Source: a virus. Taken from it: a stretch of 30,955 bases of DNA. This document shows, piece by piece, positions 628 through 30,955 of this stretch; within the stretch, counting starts at the first letter, position 1; the number at the start of each line of letters is the position of its first letter. The notes under the pieces were generated by a model. The model was not told the DNA's origin. It saw only the letters and a list, made by a program, of their open reading frames with translations, and ran no database searches. The position numbers and the translations under genes are program-made. Where the stretch lies: positions 1-30,955 of IMG/VR virus record IMGVR_UViG_3300043436_001569; one strand, given 5' to 3'.

Positions 628-2532
628 TTATCTTGGTGGAAACATATTAGGGCCTGGTTTAGATGCTATACCATAACCCGCTGTTGTTATTAAACTATTT
701 CCGTTTGTTGTAGCGCTCCAAGTAATACCATCGTTAGATATTGCTATTGTATTTGTTCCCTGTCCTACCGCAACAAATATAGAACCATTCCAAGCAACAC
801 TAGAACCATAACTACTAATTATACTATTACCATTTGTAGATGCGCTCCAAGTCAAACCATCAGTAGAATAACCTAAAGTATTTGTTCCCTGTCCTGCCGC
901 AACAAATATAGAACCATTCCAAGCAATACCAAGACAAGATGTAGTAAAGATACTATTACCATTTGTAGAAGCAGACCAAGTTATACCATCGTTGGAATAA
1001 CCTAATCTATTTGTTCCCTGCGCTCCAGCAATCCATCTACTACCATTAGTAGCGATGCCTTTTACATTATTGTTAAATATACTAGTGGCATTCGTAGATG
1101 CGCTCCAAATAAACCCGTCAGTTGAATATATTATTTTATTACTACCACCAACAGCAACCCATTTAGAACCATCATAAGCAATATCATCACAACCACTAGG
1201 CATCAAAGAAAGAGCGTTAGTTGTAGCACTATAGACATCACCATCATAAGATACTGCTAAAGGTTGCGTTGTTGCTCCAGCAGCAATAAACTTACCATCA
1301 CCATACGCAACACCAAATGCCGAAATACTTAAAAAAGAACCTAAATTACTTGAACCAGTCCAACTTATACCATCATTAGAATATAAACCATCACTAGGAC
1401 TACCTGCTCCAACTGCCACCCACCTTGAACCATTTGTTGCTACTGCTTGTGCTACTATACTTAAACTTGAACCTGTGCCCGCACTCCAAACTAAACCATC
1501 TCTAGAATACACAACTTTAGTAGAACTATCACCAGCAGCCACCCAAAGTTCAACAGGGGTGCTCGTTGGCGTTGGTGTGTAAGTCGGTGTTATTGAAGGG
1601 GTAGGACTAGGGGTTAAAGTTGTTGTTGGTGTGTTAGTGGGCGTTTCTGTAGGCGTCTGTGTAGGCGTTTCCGTGTTTGTAGGGGTAATTGTCGGGGTCG
1701 GTGTTAAAGTAGATGTTGCCGTAATTGAAGGCGTTGGCGTTGGCGTTTCCGTGTTTGTAGGTGTCTGTGTTGGGGTCGGCGTCTGCGTAGGTGTTTCCGT
1801 ATTAGTTGGTGTCTGCGTAGGTGTTTCCGTATTAGTTGGTGTCTGCGTAGGCGTTTCAGTATTAGTCGGTGTCTGTGTAGTCGTAGGTGTTTGTGTAGTC
1901 GTAGGCGTCTGTGTAGGCGTTTCCGTGTTTGTAGGGGTAATTGTCGGGGTAATAGAAGGTGTCTGTGTATTGGTAGGCGTTTGTGTTGGTGTCGCTGTGT
2001 TCGTAGGTGTAATTGACGGGGTTATTGAAGGGGTCGGTGTGTGTGAAGGGGTAAGGGAAATTGTAGGCGTAGGTGTTATACCATCACCATTCTTATAGTA
2101 GATTTTATTAGGTGCGACATTAGCAGTATTACCTGTATAGAACTCGTTTTCAACAGGAACAAATATAAACGCTAAACTATTCAACAACTTTTCACCTGAA
2201 GGATTTAATGATGTTGAATTAGGTGGCATTTCATAAATCCCTAACCAATATTGGTTTTCATTTACAAGGTGTAAATTACAATCAGTTCCCGCACTATAAA
2301 TATAGTTTTCAGGTTGGTTCTTAAATGTGTTAAATGTGAATACATCATAACGACCAGTATAGGCACTTGGATAAGTATTTGTGCTATTTTCAGGATAAAA
2401 CGATACAATATTTCTACCTTGAGCGTTCTGTAATCTCCACAGGTATTTTGGATTAGCACCAAAGTTTCCCGTCTTGTATTGGGATACATTTACGAAGATG
2501 TTATTGACTGCGTTTTGTTCTATGTATATCAT
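628..2532 (-). CDS. Tail fibre/receptor-binding protein: N-terminal domain, Thr/Pro stalk, seven-repeat propeller
   Basis: A 634-aa protein in three parts. Residues 1-150 form a globular domain (start [11 protein letters not shown]). Residues about 152-325 are a low-complexity stalk of T-P-T-x-T-P units. Residues about 326-634 hold seven repeats, each with a V-A-x-G strand and an Asp-box-like motif of the type [12 protein letters not shown] (S-x-D-G-x-x-W). Seven Asp-box repeats suggest a seven-bladed beta-propeller of the sialidase/BNR type, fitting a glycan-binding tip. I chose ATG at 2532, 5 nt after the upstream stop. A longer in-frame start at 2664 would overlap the preceding gene by 127 nt and encodes an unlikely, Arg/Tyr/Cys-rich leader. 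The gene sits between another Thr/Pro protein and the portal. Its role as an adhesin is inferred from architecture. Confidence 0.8.
1555..2080 (-). repeat. Thr/Pro-coding tandem repeat tract
   Basis: Imperfect tandem repeats of 6-36 bases encode the T-P-T-x-T-P stalk of the 634-aa fibre protein. Several 36-base units encoding [12 protein letters not shown] recur almost exactly between about 1740 and 1860. The complementary strand is read as a spurious Val/Gly ORF. The tract is prone to length change by slippage and gives homology with the shorter tract at about 3060-3235. Confidence 0.85.
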
Positions 2533-2537
2533 AATAT

Positions 2538-3338
2538 TTAGGTTGGTGAAGGGGTCATAGTATTCGTTGGGGTGATACTTGGTGTATTCGTTGGGGTTGG
2601 ACTTGGAACAATACCACCTTGAATGTAGAACCTTACAACCAAATCTAAATCTTGTGTAGGACAACCATTACCCAAGTCAGCGGCAGGATTTACAATAGCG
2701 GTTTGTTTTGTAGTTCCTGAAATTAAAGAACCACCTTGATAATATTGTTCCAAGTAGTCATATCCACCAAAAGAACCAATAAGTGCGTTGTAAGCAAAGT
2801 TTATATTCCTAACTTCATCATAAACAAAACCAGGTGAAGAACAACCTGAAAATCCACCACCATAAGTTATTTGATAAATTATGGCTGTATTGTTTCTAAT
2901 CTGTAGATTTACACAAGAACCATTACCTATTGTTCCACCAGTAGATAAAATTGGAACTAATGTTCCATTCACACTAACGGAAACTCCACCTGTGTATATT
3001 CCACCACCACAATCAATAGCCAATAATCCCGTTTGATACGGGACTGCTGGTGATGATGTTGGGGTCATCGTGGGTGTTGGGGTCATCGTAGCCGTTCTTG
3101 TCGGTGTAGGCGTCCTTGTAGTCGTTGGTGTGTTGGTTGGTGTGGTTGTGTTAGTCGGTGTGGTTGTAGGTGTCGCAGTATTCGTAGGTGTAATACTTGG
3201 GGTGATTGAAGGCGTAGGCGTTGGACTTGGACTTGGCGGTGGTGTTGGGTCAGGAAATAAAATTGGTGGAACTTGAGCCCCGTAGTTATACACTTGTTCG
3301 CCTTGGAAGTATTGGGTAAGTAATGATTTAACCTTCAT
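2538..3338 (-). CDS. Thr/Pro-rich structural protein, probable tail appendage
   Basis: A 266-aa protein. A short N-terminal segment ([20 protein letters not shown]) is followed by a Pro/Thr stalk at about residues 28-95, then a Gly/Ser-rich globular part (about 98-245) with four cysteines and beta-rich composition, then a second short Thr/Pro tail that ends the protein. The tail resembles the start of the stalk in the next gene, which begins only 5 nt downstream. The two may once have been one chain, or may exchange parts. The start overlaps the end of the 79-aa gene by 11 nt. I recognise no enzymatic domain. The position among fibre genes suggests a virion appendage; this is inference. Confidence 0.7.
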
Positions 3339-5875: not shown

Positions 5876-8017
5876 TTAAGACATAGATTTATCCATTTCT
5901 TTTAGTAGTGCTTCTAATTTCATAACAAGTTGTGCTGCGTTGTAGTCCATAGCCTCTTGGCTATTTTCTTCAACACACTTGTATTCACTTCTATCACCTA
6001 TCTTGAAACCAATAGCAGTATAACCATAATCACAATTACAATATTGTTCTGCTATATCTTCATAGGGGATATATTCAGTAATGAACTCTTCAGTCGCTTT
6101 GATTGGAACACAATTAGGAACTTCACGACCATCAACTATTTTAGTTCCGTAAGGTTCATAACCTTCCCAACAAGTTCCTTTTGGGAAATTAAACTTTTCT
6201 TTGTATTGTGAATAACATACCGCTAGTCGTTGTTTTTCATCAGGGAACTCTCCCATCATTTCACTTGAACTAACACATCTACCCACATAATCACTTTCAC
6301 TTTCACCAGGTCTAACATCAATAAATGCTTCTTCTTTTTTAACATCAAAGAAATTGAATGGGACTTCCTCAAACATACCTTCTAATGAAATTGAACTAGC
6401 CTTTTGGGATAATACAAACTCATCAAAAATCCTTCTGTCCTTGAAATGAATTGTTGTAATCCAAGTGCCAGGCTCAAACTCCCTGCCGAATATTTCATAC
6501 GATTTATCCATCTTTGGATTATCACCAACCAACCAATTTTCGTAGGTATAAACATCATCACCACTAAACACCATTCCTGAATGTTCGTAGTTGATAAGGT
6601 TTTTAGGTTTCAATCTTGATAATTTCATCAACATCTTTCTAATAGTATCACGGGACATAAAGACATAATAAGGGGTATTAGTTTCACTATCCCATCTGTA
6701 TATCTTTTGATTTGGTTGGAATACAACTGCGGTAATATCACCCTTGAAGTCATCAGCGGAAAACATTACATTCATTTCGGTTGCCTTCTTCATTTCCCTT
6801 TCAGCCCAACCTAACGCCGCTTCACCACCCCAACTATCATACATAAGTTTTCCACAACCATCATCGTAAGATTTAGAACTTTCCAAATCTACTTTATGAC
6901 GGGATAAATAACTAAACATTCTTGTAATGGTTTCAAGGGAAATGTTGTCGCCTTTTGCCAGTTGGTTTGCTCTAATCTTACCAACTTCAGTCCCACAACT
7001 TCCCCAACCATTTTCTTCAACCCAATTTAGAACCCTTTGTGCCGTGTCCTGTATTTCTTTTGTAGGAACAGCGAACGCTTCCCTAACCTTAAACTTTTCT
7101 AATACTTCACCAGTTCCTTCGTAATAGTCGTCCATTATATCAACGGGACAATACCCTTCCAATATACCTAACTTTACTTTAGAAATGATTTTTGCTGTTG
7201 GTTCAGCAACTAATGCTGCGAACCTTGTTGGATAAACAAACAGACCGAAATGAAAACCGATTGGTTTTAATTCATCTTGAGCCGACATATTTGTTGGCAT
7301 TCTGTTTAAGTATCTGGCTTCACTAATAAATGGACGACCAGAACCACCGACATTTTGACCTTTAGTTAAAGCGGATTGTGCTTTCACAGGGATTTTTGAT
7401 AATGCCGTTTCATAAGTTTCATCTATACCTATTGGAAAATCAATTTGAGCCCACTTATGACGACATCTGTTTCCTGCTTTATACTGGAAGAAATCCACAT
7501 TAGGTGCTGTCTTTGCTCTTGGAACTAACTTGAATGTATCCCCTTGTGAAGATAGTTGTAATGAATATGCTGCCATATCATCTTTAGACCAAACCCTTTG
7601 AGCCAATAACATCTTTCTACATAGTTGTCTTGATGTTCGCATCAGGGGTGCTCCTACACCTGTATCCACGATATAGATATATCTTGAAATAACAGATGCG
7701 TTATTACTATTATCGTCCCAAATACTTTGTTTTCTTGGGTCAGTATTGATTGATGGAACAGCGAAGTTTTCCAATACCAATTCATCAATATCATTTATTT
7801 CGGCGTTGAAGAATGCTTCATCGCTTACTTCCATTCCATAATTATCAATCAAAGCCAACGCTTCGTCTGTTAAATCGTCTTTATGCGAACAGGAAACTTC
7901 TTCCTGATTGTTGAAAACTTCCCAAGCAATTTGTGTGGCAGGGTCTTTTACAATACTGATATACTGAATACCAGACATATCATCTTCTTCGTCTATTTTT
8001 AACTCAAATACTTTCAT
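5876..8017 (-). CDS. Multidomain head maturation protease (XkdF-like) with added modules
   Basis: A 713-aa protein. The first 40 residues (IDEEDDMSGIQYISIVKDPA) and residues about 420-555 (IYRWDSE..YYVFMSRDTIRKM, N-x-E-H-S-G at about 476-481, E-N-W-L-V, G-T-W-I, SISLEGMFEE at about 542-551) together look like the XkdF-type prohead protease. The His of EHSG and the Ser of SLEG are the likely catalytic pair. About 375 residues are inserted between the two halves. They comprise a segment with R-T-S-R-Q-L-C-R-K-M and later CRHKW (about 108-195) and a segment beginning F-A-V-P and running to YLSRHKVDL and WGGEAALGWA (about 315-410). After the protease come a Cys module (GESESDYVGRC...RLAVC, about 571-601) and a GYEPYGTKIVDGREVPNCVP module (about 619-638). 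It overlaps the tape measure stop by one base (TAATG). The fusion order suggests stepwise accretion. Confidence 0.75.
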   Translation of the reverse strand: MKVFELKIDEEDDMSGIQYISIVKDPATQIAWEVFNNQEEVSCSHKDDLTDEALALIDNYGMEVSDEAFFNAEINDIDELVLENFAVPSINTDPRKQSIWDDNSNNASVISRYIYIVDTGVGAPLMRTSRQLCRKMLLAQRVWSKDDMAAYSLQLSSQGDTFKLVPRAKTAPNVDFFQYKAGNRCRHKWAQIDFPIGIDETYETALSKIPVKAQSALTKGQNVGGSGRPFISEARYLNRMPTNMSAQDELKPIGFHFGLFVYPTRFAALVAEPTAKIISKVKLGILEGYCPVDIMDDYYEGTGEVLEKFKVREAFAVPTKEIQDTAQRVLNWVEENGWGSCGTEVGKIRANQLAKGDNISLETITRMFSYLSRHKVDLESSKSYDDGCGKLMYDSWGGEAALGWAEREMKKATEMNVMFSADDFKGDITAVVFQPNQKIYRWDSETNTPYYVFMSRDTIRKMLMKLSRLKPKNLINYEHSGMVFSGDDVYTYENWLVGDNPKMDKSYEIFGREFEPGTWITTIHFKDRRIFDEFVLSQKASSISLEGMFEEVPFNFFDVKKEEAFIDVRPGESESDYVGRCVSSSEMMGEFPDEKQRLAVCYSQYKEKFNFPKGTCWEGYEPYGTKIVDGREVPNCVPIKATEEFITEYIPYEDIAEQYCNCDYGYTAIGFKIGDRSEYKCVEENSQEAMDYNAAQLVMKLEALLKEMDKSMS

Positions 8018-11000
8018 TATAGTCGTGCTAATTGTTCTATTTTTTTATTTAATTTTGTAGTGTCCTGAATGTCGTTATACAGAACATAAGCCTTTAGTGG
8101 TGATTTTGTAGATAAGTTTTGTTTAGCGATTGCTTGAACTATTCTACTATCATCAATAGACATCGGTTTTCCACCAGTAGCCGTATTGATACTTGAAATT
8201 GTATCCCCGTAGGCTCTAACGGCTTCCCTGTTTAAGATGAACTCACCACCTTCCAACATAGTTGGAACACCACCACCATAAGTATCGTGTGATGAACCTT
8301 CCACCAATCCACCCGTTCTACCAAAGTATGCTTTTGATTGTGTGAATTGTAATTGGTCGTTGATTACCGCAACCTGTGCTGCTGTTAAACCAGCCAACAC
8401 CAACGAAAATGGTATTGCCGCTGCGGTTGGTAATGTTGCGTATGTGTTGATAATCGCTTGAGCCCCTTGTGCTATGGCGTTCGCTAAACTAAATTGTAAT
8501 TCACTAACTCTAGCCTTCTTTTCGGCATCAAACTTTTTCTTACTATATTCTTTTTCAACCTTCGCTCTTTCTTCCAATATCCTTTTGTTTTCTTCTTCAC
8601 TTTCAGTATTGGCTTCACCGATAATGGATAATGCTTGTTCCTGTTGATATTGTAATTGTTCTAACAACAAACTATTCTGTTGTTGAACTATGTTAGATAA
8701 TTGACTTGAAATGGTCGTAAATGATGATAAAATAATATCAGCAATCTTCTTGAAATCACTTTCACTAAAGGTTTCTTGAAATGACTTTTTAAGTGCTTTG
8801 GTATTATCATTAGTTTCTTTAAGTTTCTTATTTAACTTATCCAAGATGTCGCTGAATGTTTTATATCCAACACCCAATTTTTCACCATCTACTTCACCTG
8901 AAGTTATTGCTTCACCAAAAGATATTTCTAATTCTTTAATGATGTTGATAAGTCCTTCAATTTCTTCTGCTGACTTGAATGTAAGGTTTTCTAATCCTAA
9001 TGATGCGTCTTGAACTATCTTTACGAAATCTTGGGGACTAATTACACGAAGTAATTTATCCCTTAAACCATCTGTGTTATTGATTACATTATTGATGAAA
9101 CCAGTAAATGCTTCTTGTGATGTTGAAAAAGCATCAGTAAGTTTTTTACCAAAGTTTTCAATTTCAGTATCAGTAAGTTTCTTATCTAAATCAATTAAAT
9201 CTTTACCAAATAAAGTGGTAAATGTGTTTAATCTGGTTAAAGCGTTTTCATTTCTTGCGGCTTCTAGTTTTAGTTGTCCTAAACTATCACGAACCTTATT
9301 ACTTTCAATTACGACATCACCTTCCTTTTTAGCCAAATCAACTAATAGTTTAGTGAATGTTTGTATCCTTTCATTATATGCTGTTTGTTCTGCGATGGCA
9401 GTTTTAGTTCTAGCACCCCTTTTTTCAGTAAGACCCAAGTTTTCTTTAACGAACTTTGTTAGGTTCTGTTCTGCTTCACCTGCTAATAATGTTTCATCGC
9501 TTAATTGTTTAACCCCTTCATCAACTAATTTTTTAAGAAACACATTTGCTTCTTCTAATTTAGTTTTTGTATCTTTACCAACAAACTTGGTTATTAAATC
9601 TTGGTTTTCTTTACCAGCCAACGATGTTGTAAATCTTTGGATTGTGTTAAAATAGTTTAATAAACCCTGTCTGGCTTCATCTGTAAGTTTAACACTTTCA
9701 GCAGTAATAGGTGTAAAATCCGCTCCAAGTGGGTTTTTTAATTCTTCACCAAGTTCATTATACAACTTGATTAAATCATCAAAAGTAATCTTCACATCTT
9801 TCGGTAATCTCTCAAAGTTTAATCCAATTCTATCAAAGATTTTTATGTAAAAATCTTCTAATAGTTTAGCATCTTCTGCCGTTGGGATTATATCAAAGAA
9901 TAATCTGTTTATATCTTCAGTAAGTTTTTCACTTTCCTTCTTTGCGAATTGGTTTCTTTCATCAATCAGGGCTTGCTGTTTATCAATAAGTTCTTTAACC
10001 CTATCCAACACTTCAGCCTGAACTTCTATTTCTTGGTTTGCGAAACCTTGTAATTGAGCCAAATAAAGTTTCTGTAGTTCTAATCTTTTTTGGATTTCTT
10101 GAATTGCGAATTGTTCCCTTTTATCCCTATTTTCTTTTGACTTCGCATTTCTTTTATCTTCTTCTTGTTTTTGGAAATCAGTAATCGCCTTTTCACTATT
10201 TTTAACAGCGGTTTCAAGTTTAATCGTAGCAATCAAGTTCGCATCAAGATTGTCTTTGATTTCCTTTTCCCTAATTTTTAATCTAGCGGTTCTATCTTTA
10301 TCCCTATCTTTTTCGGCGATGAATATATCTTGTTGGACGATTTCTAAATCCCTGAATAAATCACTTTGTTTTTGTAATCTTTTGTTGTATTCATCTTGGT
10401 TTTTCTGTAAGTCAGTTTGTAGTGCTGCTTCATTTTCACCAATAGATTTAATATATCCAATACGAGCATCTTGTAGTTCGTTTGTCTTTTCTAATGACTT
10501 GTTGAAATCATCATACGCTTCTTTGGCAGTTTTAATCTTTGGGGCTTCAGCATTCACTTCACTAAACTTTTCAACCAAAGTGGTAATACCAATAATCAAT
10601 AATGGAAGACCCAACGCAGCAAATGCTGATGTAAGGGCTCTAACCCCTGCTGATGCGACACCTGCTTCTATACCAACTAAACCTAACGCCGCTGATACAC
10701 CCTTTGCGGTTGCGATGTAGGCTTTTGATGTAATGTTTAAGGCTTTTTCAGCAAGTTCCCTACGGAATATCTTACTTTCTAATATACCTTCATTTACCGC
10801 TCTAACACCTAAAGCGATATTCAATACATTCAAGGACTTTGCTTCTGCGTCTTGAACGGCTTTTAATGTTTCTTCATCACTAGATAATGTCCCAACTACC
10901 CCACTTAAAGCCTGAAATGAACCTGATAGTAAGTTAGTTGTATCACCGATGGCACGCAATCTTTTTTCAACACCAATACCTTCAGTCGTTTTATCAACAT

Positions 11001-11187
11001 CTTCCAACCTTGATTTTAAGATTTGTATATTCTGTGCTGCTTCCTTGAACTGCCTACTACCAAACTCCGCTGTCTTCAGGGTGTTCTGTAATACTTTTAA
11101 TTCATCTTCAAGTTGGGTAATACTTGATATTACCTTTTCACTACCATCGCTGGTAATCTTTATTTTTAATCCAATTTCTTTCGCCAT
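8017..11187 (-). CDS. Tape measure protein
   Basis: A 1056-aa protein that sets tail length and fills the tube before ejection. The N-terminus (MAKEIGLKIKITSDGSEKVI) followed by coiled coil is usual for the family. Residues about 155-215 contain hydrophobic stretches (AFAALGLPLLIIGITTLVEKF) that could enter the host membrane. The long middle is Lys/Glu/Leu-rich helix. The C-terminus contains a short hydrophobic segment and the G-G-L-V-E-G...GGEFILNREAVRAYG pattern often seen at the end of tape measures. At about 0.15 nm per residue, a known rule for such proteins, the tail would be near 160 nm. It begins 3 nt after the preceding tail gene. Unusually, it lies far from the chaperone-like gene and directly before the head protease. 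Confidence 0.9.
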   Translation of the reverse strand: MAKEIGLKIKITSDGSEKVISSITQLEDELKVLQNTLKTAEFGSRQFKEAAQNIQILKSRLEDVDKTTEGIGVEKRLRAIGDTTNLLSGSFQALSGVVGTLSSDEETLKAVQDAEAKSLNVLNIALGVRAVNEGILESKIFRRELAEKALNITSKAYIATAKGVSAALGLVGIEAGVASAGVRALTSAFAALGLPLLIIGITTLVEKFSEVNAEAPKIKTAKEAYDDFNKSLEKTNELQDARIGYIKSIGENEAALQTDLQKNQDEYNKRLQKQSDLFRDLEIVQQDIFIAEKDRDKDRTARLKIREKEIKDNLDANLIATIKLETAVKNSEKAITDFQKQEEDKRNAKSKENRDKREQFAIQEIQKRLELQKLYLAQLQGFANQEIEVQAEVLDRVKELIDKQQALIDERNQFAKKESEKLTEDINRLFFDIIPTAEDAKLLEDFYIKIFDRIGLNFERLPKDVKITFDDLIKLYNELGEELKNPLGADFTPITAESVKLTDEARQGLLNYFNTIQRFTTSLAGKENQDLITKFVGKDTKTKLEEANVFLKKLVDEGVKQLSDETLLAGEAEQNLTKFVKENLGLTEKRGARTKTAIAEQTAYNERIQTFTKLLVDLAKKEGDVVIESNKVRDSLGQLKLEAARNENALTRLNTFTTLFGKDLIDLDKKLTDTEIENFGKKLTDAFSTSQEAFTGFINNVINNTDGLRDKLLRVISPQDFVKIVQDASLGLENLTFKSAEEIEGLINIIKELEISFGEAITSGEVDGEKLGVGYKTFSDILDKLNKKLKETNDNTKALKKSFQETFSESDFKKIADIILSSFTTISSQLSNIVQQQNSLLLEQLQYQQEQALSIIGEANTESEEENKRILEERAKVEKEYSKKKFDAEKKARVSELQFSLANAIAQGAQAIINTYATLPTAAAIPFSLVLAGLTAAQVAVINDQLQFTQSKAYFGRTGGLVEGSSHDTYGGGVPTMLEGGEFILNREAVRAYGDTISSINTATGGKPMSIDDSRIVQAIAKQNLSTKSPLKAYVLYNDIQDTTKLNKKIEQLARL

Positions 11188-19433: not shown

Positions 19434-19967
19434 TTATGGTTGTTGTTGATATAAGATTTGGTCGCCACCTTCAGTTGTAAATATTGAACCATTTTGGAAC
19501 AATAAGTAGAACTGCTCTTGGATATTGACTGGAATACAAGCCGTCTGTTCGGCGGTGATTGTAATGACCGCTTCAACCCCACAGACATCTTGGGAAAATC
19601 TATCCATAAAGGGTGTGTAATTCACAGCCGTATTCAAGAAGAAATCACTACTAGTAAGTTGGTTTGTGAAGAATGCGTAGAAGTCAGTTAGAATAACTTG
19701 GCATAAAGACAAACTATCCAACTGGTTAGAATTGATTGGGTCTCCATCAACATATTCATTCAACAGGTCATAAATTAAAATGTTGAAATTAAAGGTCGCA
19801 TAGTTCTTTTCAACTAACGATGGCTGTGGAACAGCGTGGAACGCAGGATACTTTGTAATATAATCGTCCCTTGAATAATCCGCTAGATTACCCCAACTGA
19901 AAGTTTGTAGTATTGGGTGTTGTGCCGTGAATACTGCGAATATTTGTATAATATCTTTTATAGTCAT
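19434..19967 (-). CDS. Tail-terminator-like protein (candidate)
   Basis: A 177-aa protein beginning MTIKDIIQIFAVFTAQHPIL. The pattern H-P-x-L-x-x-F-S-W-G-N-L...Y-P-A-F-x-A-V-P-x-P then FNFNILIYDLLNEYVDGDPINSNQLDSLSLCQVILTDF resembles a family in Bacteroidota phages placed between head-joining and tail genes and thought to act as tail terminator/completion protein. The ATG shares one base with the stop of the frameshifted chaperone product (TAATG at 19965-19969), implying coupled translation. I base the call on pattern and neighbourhood only; another neck role is possible. Confidence 0.55.
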   Translation of the reverse strand: MTIKDIIQIFAVFTAQHPILQTFSWGNLADYSRDDYITKYPAFHAVPQPSLVEKNYATFNFNILIYDLLNEYVDGDPINSNQLDSLSLCQVILTDFYAFFTNQLTSSDFFLNTAVNYTPFMDRFSQDVCGVEAVITITAEQTACIPVNIQEQFYLLFQNGSIFTTEGGDQILYQQQP

Positions 19968-20742
19968 TATTGTATTGTTTTTTGGTTTTTCTGGTTTTCT
20001 TTATGTGCCTTATCTAACCTATATGATAAATATGATAAGACCTCAAACAATTCCAATTTAAGAACGGGATTTACTTTTAAGATGTCGTCTTGAGCGCACA
20101 ACATAAGTGATTGGTAATAAAAATCTACTACGGATTGTTGGACTTCTTGTGGCGTAGTATCTTTGTTTTTGCTTTGTCTTTTTTGTTGTTCTCTATCATT
20201 TTCGTCTCCATAGATGATAGGGAAACTTTGGTAAGTTCTTGAACGAAAGTTGTTAAAAAAAAAAGGGCTGAAAATAAACTAGTTATGGGGAACTGCTTAA
20301 AGTCATTCATACGACCCATACATTCGTCTAATGAATAGGGTATTAGTTCCCTATCATCACCTTCTTTATTGTTGGATAATGGTTTGTATAAATGGACTGC
20401 CAACTTGGTTAAATCCAAAGGACTTTCAGCCATAAACACTTCAAGGTTTATCCATTCTTCATAACTGATGTTTGATGGTTTAATCAAACCATATTTAACC
20501 CCCTTGAAATCCACTACTAATTGTAGGGGTGTTGTGTCTGTATTACCCCATTCAGTCATCAACATCTTTGCCACGAACGATACTTGTGCGAAGGGTGCTT
20601 GTTTCACTTCTTCAATCGGTGCTCCCGTCATCATAGTAATCAATTCTGTTGCTTTAATGTCGGGGTTTTTCTTCAGTAATTCATACTGCTCTATTGTGAT
20701 GGGTAATATCCCATATTCTTTTTTACCTAATACTACTTTCAT
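19967..20742 (-). CDS. Tail assembly chaperone-like protein, long form made by -1 frameshift
   Basis: Joined product: 20742 to 20254 in the zero frame (163 codons), then a slip by -1 so that base 20254 is read again, then 95 codons to a TAA at 19967-19969. The total is 258 aa. The extension (NNFRSRTYQSFPIIYGDEND..., ending in a helix LKLELFEVLSYLSYRL) has no stop for 95 codons and fills an otherwise empty 160-bp gap. It ends exactly on the next gene's ATG. An isolated start inside it (ATG at 20104, 45 codons) is the alternative. Frameshifting is inferred from sequence; mass spectrometry would settle it. Confidence 0.65.
20128..20742 (-). CDS. Tail assembly chaperone-like protein, short (zero-frame) form
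   Basis: A 204-aa protein beginning MKVVLGKKEYGILPITIEQY. The N-terminal two thirds (TIEQYELLKKNPDIKATELI, VDFKGVKYGLIKPSNISYEEW, MAESPLDLTKLAVHLYKPL) resemble proteins in the tail-chaperone position of Bacteroidota phages. A helix near residues 150-170 (ITSLFSALFFLTTFVQEL) contains the slippery run. After the run the zero frame reads a Lys-rich tail (NNKKDKAKTKILRHKKSN). A short and a frameshifted long product from one gene is the G/GT arrangement of tail assembly chaperones. The start lies inside the end of the 54-aa gene. Unlike in most phages, it is not next to the tape measure. Confidence 0.65.
   Translation of the reverse strand: MKVVLGKKEYGILPITIEQYELLKKNPDIKATELITMMTGAPIEEVKQAPFAQVSFVAKMLMTEWGNTDTTPLQLVVDFKGVKYGLIKPSNISYEEWINLEVFMAESPLDLTKLAVHLYKPLSNNKEGDDRELIPYSLDECMGRMNDFKQFPITSLFSALFFLTTFVQELTKVSLSSMETKMIENNKKDKAKTKILRHKKSNNP
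20248..20264 (-). promoter_or_regulatory. Slippery site for -1 frameshifting
   Basis: On the minus strand ten T are followed by AA (plus-strand A-run 20255-20264). In frame this gives T-TTT-TTA, a canonical X-XXY-YYZ heptamer, ending at 20254. Two nt downstream, AACTTT and AAAGTT (20246-20251 and 20224-20229 on the plus strand) can pair around an inner GTT/AAC stem, a possible stimulator. Confidence 0.65.
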
Positions 20743-20887
20743 AATGTTTCACTAATATATTTATCATCTTACCTAATGGTTTCTTTTCTTTTATTGATAG
20801 TTCTTTTAGGGCTCTATAATATTCACCCTTCATTATGATTGACTTGTAGTCATAATCATAATCCTTTCCTAATCTTTTAATTTTCAT
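20723..20887 (-). CDS. Small protein, possible ribbon-helix-helix type
   Basis: A 54-aa basic protein beginning MKIKRLGKDYDYDYKSIIMK. It starts 2 nt after the terminase stop and overlaps the start of the chaperone-like gene by 20 nt, leaving no unexplained DNA between them. The second half (Y-Y-R-A-L-K-E-L-S-I-K-E-K-K-P-L-G-K-M-I...) has the spacing of the two helices in ribbon-helix-helix proteins, but the N-terminal strand is not convincing. It could equally be a small assembly factor. The tight packing is the main support for translation. Confidence 0.5.
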   Translation of the reverse strand: MKIKRLGKDYDYDYKSIIMKGEYYRALKELSIKEKKPLGKMINILVKHYESSIR

Positions 20888-20889
20888 AA

Positions 20890-22065
20890 TTACATAAAAC
20901 TATATTTCACTTTTGGCTTATAGGTCATTTCCGTAATCAAATACCTTGCGGCGTCTAATAAGTGGTCTCTACCTGTTGTCTTACTGGTGATGTTCCCTGA
21001 CCTGTCCTTGAACCATTTGTAGTTCTTTAGTTCTTCAATCAAGTTAGTTGATGATGCGTCAATCTGTAGTTTATACTTTTTCATTTCGGTTATACCATAC
21101 AGGACTGACCCTGCTTCCTTCTTTACCCCCCTTGTTCTTGAATAACCACCCTTCTTCAGTTCGTCAATCATACGGGGCTCACTACTATCGGCGATGACCT
21201 CAAAGGTCTTTTGTAATCCACCTTCACGCATCTTGAATAATATATCATCACTAGACAATCCCTTTTCATAGAATACTTCCTTCAGGTAGATTACATTATC
21301 AGGTTCGTTGATAAGTCCCCATACACACGCACATTCGTCATTAGAATAACCCCAGTCAATTCCTACACCTAACATCTTGGAATATCTTGGTGCTTCTTTA
21401 ACCACTTCCCAATTGATAAAGATTGTTTCACGGGGTTTAATCTTTTTACCCAACGCATAAACTTCATACATTTCAGGGTCTATGTCTTTCAACCCTTCAA
21501 TAGATTTTACAATTCGGTCATCTAAAAAGGGGTTCTGTTTGTAGGTTGAAATGATTAGTTGGTTTTCAGGTTTTTCTTCCAATTCATAAACGAACCAATC
21601 ATCACTAGCCGATGGGTTGTAATCTGCTATGATGAACCTACTGGTTCTAATGTCTAACTGAATAAACGCATCTTGGGATACTGATGTAATTTCGTTGATG
21701 AATACGATGTCTTGTTTCATACCACGAAGTTTTCCTGAACCATCATCTGCTCCCAAGAACCTAACTAATGAACCATTATCAAACCTGTAGATTACTTCTG
21801 TCTTGTTGAATAGTTCAGGGTTGTATAAACCCATTTGGTTCATTACTTCCTGAAAGTCCAATAGAACAGAATTACGGATTGATACAAGTGTGTCCCTAAC
21901 TATCGTAATTGTTGTGTTGGGGTTCTGTAGAATGTATAAAATCAGGTAGGATATGGTTTGATATGTCTTACCGCTTCTTGATGAGCCACGAAGGAATATA
22001 TGTCTTTTACCTTCCTTGACTGCCTTGTCTATATCCAAGTATAATGTTGATACTTTTACTTCCAT
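20890..22065 (-). CDS. terL: Terminase large subunit
   Basis: A 391-aa DNA-packaging motor. The ATPase domain shows Walker A GSSRSGKT at residues 27-34 and Walker B DIVFINE at 119-125 with the catalytic Glu at 125. The motif after it (ITSVSQDAFIQLDIRTS) and the coupling-type segment IISTYKQNPF (171-180) fit. The C-terminal nuclease shows GIDWG (Asp237), IADSS (Asp293) and RDHLLDAARY (Asp367, Asp371), a complete RNase H-like acidic set. Length and motifs match PBSX/XtmB-type large terminases. It opens the late region behind a terminator and a leader with the ATATTTATAG motif. Unusually, the small-subunit candidate lies about 3.8 kb upstream, across a block of ORFan genes. Confidence 0.95.
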   Translation of the reverse strand: MEVKVSTLYLDIDKAVKEGKRHIFLRGSSRSGKTYQTISYLILYILQNPNTTITIVRDTLVSIRNSVLLDFQEVMNQMGLYNPELFNKTEVIYRFDNGSLVRFLGADDGSGKLRGMKQDIVFINEITSVSQDAFIQLDIRTSRFIIADYNPSASDDWFVYELEEKPENQLIISTYKQNPFLDDRIVKSIEGLKDIDPEMYEVYALGKKIKPRETIFINWEVVKEAPRYSKMLGVGIDWGYSNDECACVWGLINEPDNVIYLKEVFYEKGLSSDDILFKMREGGLQKTFEVIADSSEPRMIDELKKGGYSRTRGVKKEAGSVLYGITEMKKYKLQIDASSTNLIEELKNYKWFKDRSGNITSKTTGRDHLLDAARYLITEMTYKPKVKYSFM

Positions 22066-30109: not shown

Positions 30110-30955
30110 AATTCGGGTGTTCTAAACTTGTTTATCAATTTGATTGGTCTATCGTATTTTAACGCTAATATGTTTTCAATAGATGCGTTTGCTTTTCTAA
30201 CCATAGGCTTAATTGTGGTTTCCATCATCAAGTTCCAAGCCACATTTATTTCTTCTGCGTTTTGACTGAATGCTGAATTATTCAAGGTTGAAATACCAAG
30301 AAGTAATGGTGATGCGACTTGTTGTCCTGTAAGGATTGCCTGAACGCACATTTGTAATATTTCGGTATAGAAACTATCATTACCCGTATTACTAATTGGT
30401 TCAATAACAGGTCTTTCATCAGCAGAATTACTGAACGCCAACATAAGTTTTTGTCCGTTCTTTCCTTGATAAGACCTAACCAATTCTTCGTATGTAGAAA
30501 GTCGTTCTTCAGGTGTAGGGTCTCCTATCAAACTTACAAATAAGTTCGGCATAAGTGATGCTGCCAAGTTTGTCTTGTGGAATTGGTAGATTTCTGCTTC
30601 CAATACACAACTATCAATAGAAGATTGATATGGTGTTAAAGGATAGTGTCTATTCATCGTTGGGGTATAATCTTTCCAATATACCATTTCACGACCTTCA
30701 CGGGTTTCCATATTTAATGATTGGAACTTTACAACTAATCTTTTTTGTTGTGTGTTCTGCCAATCTTCACATACATAAAAAACACCATTTTCCCTGTTGT
30801 GTATTTCTACATCTTGTTTTCCAACACGAACATCTTGGAATGGAATATGGTAGATACTTTCAACTCTGCTGCCGTCCCTGCTTTTGATAATTTCCCACGA
30901 ATACCCCCCAAATAACCATATGTCGTATAAGGTCTTGTAATATAATTCACTAATG
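30106..30955 (-). CDS. Portal protein, C-terminal part (open at right edge)
   Basis: The frame is open from the right edge of the window to TGA at 30106. An internal ATG at 30711 is not the true start, because in-frame codons continue to the edge and match those at 1-306. Residues include WLFGGYSWEIIKSRDGSR, YHIPFQDVRVGKQDVEIHNR and a C-terminal helical part (QAILTGQQVASPLLLGISTL, WNLMMETTIKPMV). These fit the clip/stem and crown of a portal. With 1-584 it makes a 375-aa protein. In the overlap this copy differs from the left copy at five residues. Confidence 0.85.
   Translation of the reverse strand, partial: ISELYYKTLYDIWLFGGYSWEIIKSRDGSRVESIYHIPFQDVRVGKQDVEIHNRENGVFYVCEDWQNTQQKRLVVKFQSLNMETREGREMVYWKDYTPTMNRHYPLTPYQSSIDSCVLEAEIYQFHKTNLAASLMPNLFVSLIGDPTPEERLSTYEELVRSYQGKNGQKLMLAFSNSADERPVIEPISNTGNDSFYTEILQMCVQAILTGQQVASPLLLGISTLNNSAFSQNAEEINVAWNLMMETTIKPMVRKANASIENILALKYDRPIKLINKFRTPEL
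30650..30955. repeat. Right copy of diverged terminal overlap
   Basis: Aligns without gaps to 1-306 with 24 mismatches, mostly in the segment matching 198-282. It marks the point at which the circular or permuted genome was cut by assembly. Confidence 0.85.

Follow-up and report, generated by a model that had tools for sequence, protein, structure and literature searches.

A conserved T run with a predicted -1 frame change in a putative tail chaperone gene of uncultured phages

In phage lambda the tail assembly chaperone gene yields a short protein, G, and a longer form, GT, through a frameshift that is ribosomal (PMC5009743), and a shift of 6-7% was recorded in reporters for two HK97-like chaperone genes (PMC3711429). 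Transcriptional slippage, in turn, is recognised to act on T runs longer than 8 (PMC3711429), and in Shigella mxiE two overlapping frames are joined by an extra U in a U run to give a longer product (PMC1088944). No open-access paper that we found describes transcriptional slippage as the source of a tail chaperone.

Here we describe a phage gene in a 30,955-base virus record (the window, meaning the whole stretch analysed) in which, judging from the sequence, a long T run is almost certainly the site of a programmed -1 frame change, whichever machine slips. Reading the gene in this way joins parts that gene calling had split or dropped, both in an uncultured phage group and in one cultured phage, and provides a testable case of a homopolymer run held constant for a frame change.

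The T run and its reading frames

The gene lies on the minus strand (20742..20128) as an open frame of 204 aa, which is conserved in 41 IMG/VR loci and whose AlphaFold2 model has a mean pLDDT of 84. Its codons 160-163, CTT TTT TTT TTA, form the putative slippage run, a T10 at 20264-20255 (minus strand) with the 0-frame context GCC CTT TTT TTT TTA ACA. An earlier reading, made from the letters of the window (hereafter the sequence-only reading), had pointed to the heptamer T_TTT_TTA here, and this is indeed in frame within the run, as is T_TTT_TTT. With the TTT across the end of the run included, the -1 frame stays open for 96 codons (19970..20257, minus strand; the T-like part), 95 of them beyond the run, while the +1 frame meets a stop immediately past it. 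Between 20128 and 20254 (minus strand) the 0 frame and the -1 frame are both open, forming a dual-coding overlap. The -1 frame ends in a TAA at 19969-19967 that has one base in common with the ATG (at 19967) of the next gene (TAATG), which encodes 177 aa (19434..19967, minus strand), has no family match and looks tail-completion-like only by eye. As called, 160 nt separate the 204-aa gene and the 177-aa gene. The predicted fusion, supported by the open frame and by the relatives, spans 19967..20742 (minus strand, TAA included) and has 258 aa. The sequence-only reading had given the same 95 codons, 160-nt gap, TAATG junction and 258-aa product, and all of these coordinates and counts hold. The gap separating the G-like gene from the terminase gene is spanned by an uncalled 54-aa frame (20723-20887, minus strand), which also overlaps the start of the G-like gene.

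Such an arrangement is rare within the window. At none of 4,214 codon positions in ten other genes is the -1 frame open for at least 96 codons, and synonymous shuffling predicts 0.04 sense-strand T runs of at least 10 within genes, where one is observed. From one start the gene would give two proteins, a short form of 204 aa (G-like) and a long form of 258 aa (GT-like). The long one would lack the final 42 residues of the short one and carry the 96-residue -1 extension in their place. These two predicted products, one short and one -1 extended, are what is expected of a G/GT gene.

Conservation of the run and of both frames

Matching loci were collected from IMG/VR with the short protein (34 loci), the short-protein alignment (41), the extension (64) and a larger extension alignment (80), and the comparison set comprised 39 non-identical loci with complete genes, window included, with 0-frame identity down to about 42%. 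The run is T10 in 36 of these loci, T9 in two and T11 in one; T_TTT_TTT is in frame at every locus and T_TTT_TTA at most. All 39 have a -1 extension, of 90-96 codons, giving fused products of 253-260 aa, and in most the -1 stop overlaps or nearly adjoins the next start. The sequence-only reading had proposed just this comparison of related phages, and it comes out in its favour: run and extension are kept together throughout the set, and neither stops in the -1 frame of relatives nor loss of the run with the extension retained, the two outcomes named as contrary to it, was found.

The codons of the run are also unusually constant. Third-position changes were counted by parsimony on a single tree (9.4 substitutions per site) and are hence not to be read as formal probabilities. 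They number 0, 0 and 1 at codons 160, 161 and 162, whereas 58 conserved columns upstream average 7.7 (range 3-12 for Phe and 5-12 for Leu). Where residue 160 is Leu its codon is CTT (32/32 loci). In the six loci where it has become Phe (ALFFL to AFFF) the run lies 2 nt farther upstream, still as T9-T10, and all six write the preceding Ala as GCT, a residue that is mostly GCC or GCG where it falls outside the run. At alignment column 162 TTC occurs twice, both times in one of these six loci with a displaced T9 run.

Beyond the run both frames leave their mark. Among same-residue pairs codon identity is 0.63-0.93 in the dual-coding overlap versus about 0.5 upstream, as expected since two frames are read there. 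In the part of the extension read in the -1 frame alone, differences by codon position are 0.32/0.18/0.50, indicating that the extension evolves as a protein in that frame. The comparison shows that selection acts, at the level of sequence, on the run, on both frames and on the junction where stop and start share a base.

The arrangement extends to two more distant families. The first, contigs L153-L162, has a T9 run and a 90-codon -1 extension with 27-30% identity in the extension, the run context being GTT TTT TTT TGG in members with Val and xxG GTT in the rest; in L158, the one contig of this group that was read through, the gene upstream resembles terminase by motif. The second is represented by the cultured Nonlabens phage P12024S, whose gene 38, beside the terminase, contains CTT TTT TTT TAT (T9) followed by an 81-codon -1 extension. 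The end of that extension is annotated as gene 39, a separate gene of 55 aa, and the frame change is unannotated. Profile comparison with hhalign gave P values of 0.0016 for the short protein (G) and 0.004 for the extension, which are modest alone and gain strength because position and run also agree. Elsewhere in these genomes, the family of a 754-aa protein of P12024S matches an 834-aa protein of the window (E 6e-10). We found no relatives of the extension in bacterial genomes. The hit in Flavobacterium phage 6H was uninformative as a comparison, its relatives having one long open frame at this place; a 6H gene of 191 aa has 293 aa in close relatives, so that 6H carries a natural or a sequencing frameshift (L163:3001-3882 and L146:10352-10927).

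Two explanations would do away with the frame change altogether. The first is that the T run has been given a wrong length in what is truly a single frame, or that the extension is the remnant of a decayed gene. Homopolymers are error-prone, and in contig L151 (L151:2546-2590) the run is T9 where sister contigs have T10, with a 0-frame stop directly past the run, a variant that is either an assembly error or natural. T10 nevertheless recurs in dozens of independent contigs, both frames past the run are conserved, and a single fused frame was seen in no relative, so that we regard error or decay as extremely improbable; the relatives rule out a sequencing error unless all of them share one systematic error. 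It is also very unlikely, if a little less so, that the extension is no part of a fusion but a downstream gene in its own right, with its start inside the overlap. The annotation of gene 39 in P12024S would fit a separate gene, but the extension alignment begins at the run and is conserved from there (FNNFR..TY), it lacks a conserved start codon where it begins, and the run is conserved as well.

The predicted protein and its neighbourhood

Neither the short protein nor the extension has a sequence match in Pfam, PHROG or the PDB sequences. With Foldseek the model of the short protein gave 36 BFVD matches at E 0.001 or better, all of them uncharacterised or unnamed phage proteins (the DNA context was viewed for one, P12024S), and nothing in the PDB at that threshold. 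The top VIA-align row was the HK97 tail assembly chaperone (PDB 2ob9), with a Z of 3.4 and an rmsd of 3.4 over 63 aligned residues within model residues 1-69; this Z is barely above that of unrelated rows (next 3.0) and within noise, and we take it as a hint. The extension was predicted with a pLDDT of 66 and gave no useful structure matches.

Upstream the gene adjoins the terminase large subunit (20890..22065, minus strand; PHROG phrog_2, E = 1e-33). It is flanked by terminase and the 177-aa gene in every main-family locus tested, and it follows directly after a terminase or terminase-like gene in all families. The candidate tape-measure protein of 1056 aa (8017..11187, minus strand), which has no family match and was assigned by size and composition only, lies 9 kb downstream of the G-like gene, with similar spacing in the relative G001, and is present in six of the seven relatives' contigs tested; the assignments of the tail-tube and 177-aa genes likewise come from size, composition or inspection by eye. 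The G/GT scheme put forward in the sequence-only reading stands in part: the frame change recurs in all 39 loci and in two far families, but the gene is not placed just upstream of the tape-measure gene as that gene is assigned here. Two genes rich in Thr-Pro-Thr repeats (TPTQTPT) occupy 628-3338 of the window, near the portal gene. Over 306 bases within the portal gene the two ends of the record (1-306 and 30650-30955) are 92% identical, which may mean that the genome is circular and that its ends derive from two strains differing slightly.

The description of the protein as tail chaperone-like has fared similarly. The layout with two products, the phage setting and the predicted fold make the label plausible, whereas a match in Pfam, PHROG or the PDB sequences is lacking. 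If the comparison with lambda carries over, G would coat the tape-measure protein and the extension would recruit tail-tube subunits. It is likely that the frame change at the T run, by either machine, makes a tail-chaperone-like pair, and this pair probably works like G/GT and is a tail assembly chaperone. The frameshift could also be real and the protein some other factor of head completion or assembly whose longer form arises by frameshift, as the position directly after terminase, the 9 kb to the tape-measure candidate and the missing chaperone family matches might suggest. We consider this unlikely, since the size, the long -1 extension and the best (weak) solved-structure match fit a chaperone, and since no second overlapping pair was seen in the open frames that separate terminase from the tape-measure candidate.

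Slippage by RNA polymerase or by the ribosome

A downstream stem or pseudoknot is common at ribosomal -1 sites, though not obligatory. The short pairing element that had been proposed to follow the run did not survive scrutiny: its z is -0.65, and 22 aligned loci gave no nested downstream structure, with a consensus fold of 0 kcal/mol and no covariation above shuffles. The mean fold z of -0.76 is within the range of control windows. We rejected a downstream stem-loop as stimulator, as it is neither unusually stable nor conserved. This result leaves the choice of machine undecided, because low-efficiency ribosomal sites may lack such a structure.

The slip would take place on a run of about 10 T and, as we infer, would need the homopolymer alone. 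RNA polymerase slippage would put an extra U in some of the mRNAs; it could add up with ribosomal slippage, and both would give the same protein. The T9-T11 runs of the main and distant contig families are of the length associated with transcriptional slippage (about 9 or more A or T in a row), and T_TTT_TTT supplies every locus with an X_XXY_YYZ heptamer in the 0-frame phase, so that runs held at 9 T or more suit RNA polymerase and ribosome alike. The main alternative to polymerase slippage, which concerns the slipping machine and not the existence of the frame change, is ribosomal -1 frameshifting alone at T_TTT_TTT/T_TTT_TTA in the style of lambda G/GT, with the extra T's a by-product of Phe-rich coding in two frames. 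The in-frame heptamers present at every locus, which explain the third-position constraint equally well, the ribosomal nature of the lambda shift and the reporter values for the HK97-like genes speak for it, and we give it a serious chance, somewhat short of even. Against it, the run always has at least 9 T where 8 (the heptamer plus the fixed next T) would be sufficient, other slippery heptamers are used in none of the families seen, and a conserved stimulatory structure is absent, though low-efficiency sites may not need one. Because the run never drops below 9 T and no other heptamer replaces it, we place RNA polymerase slippage slightly ahead of ribosomal slippage as the machine. The full proposal, that this is a tail assembly chaperone family making both of its forms through programmed slippage of RNA polymerase at a T run across deeply divergent phages, is more tentative and stays clearly below an even chance. 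If RNA polymerase does slip, transcription would fix the ratio of the two assembly proteins, which the cultured P12024S makes measurable.

Set beside the described systems, the gene resembles lambda G/GT in having a short protein with a -1 C-terminal extension, a shift late in the short gene and a place in the phage structural region; it differs in its long T run in place of the lambda heptamer, its long dual-coding overlap, its position next to terminase and not to the tape-measure gene, and the lack of a sequence family match. The HK97 chaperone (2ob9) is the top solved-structure row for model residues 1-69, but at 10% identity, with a weak score and no sequence match. Shigella mxiE offers the same joining of overlapping frames at a homopolymer, in an unrelated protein, whereas the phage case is a prediction from sequence. 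The closest counterpart is found in genes 38/39 of P12024S which, although only about 20% identical and annotated as two hypothetical proteins, share the position after terminase, the T9 at an LFF motif, the -1 extension and a weak profile similarity of both parts.
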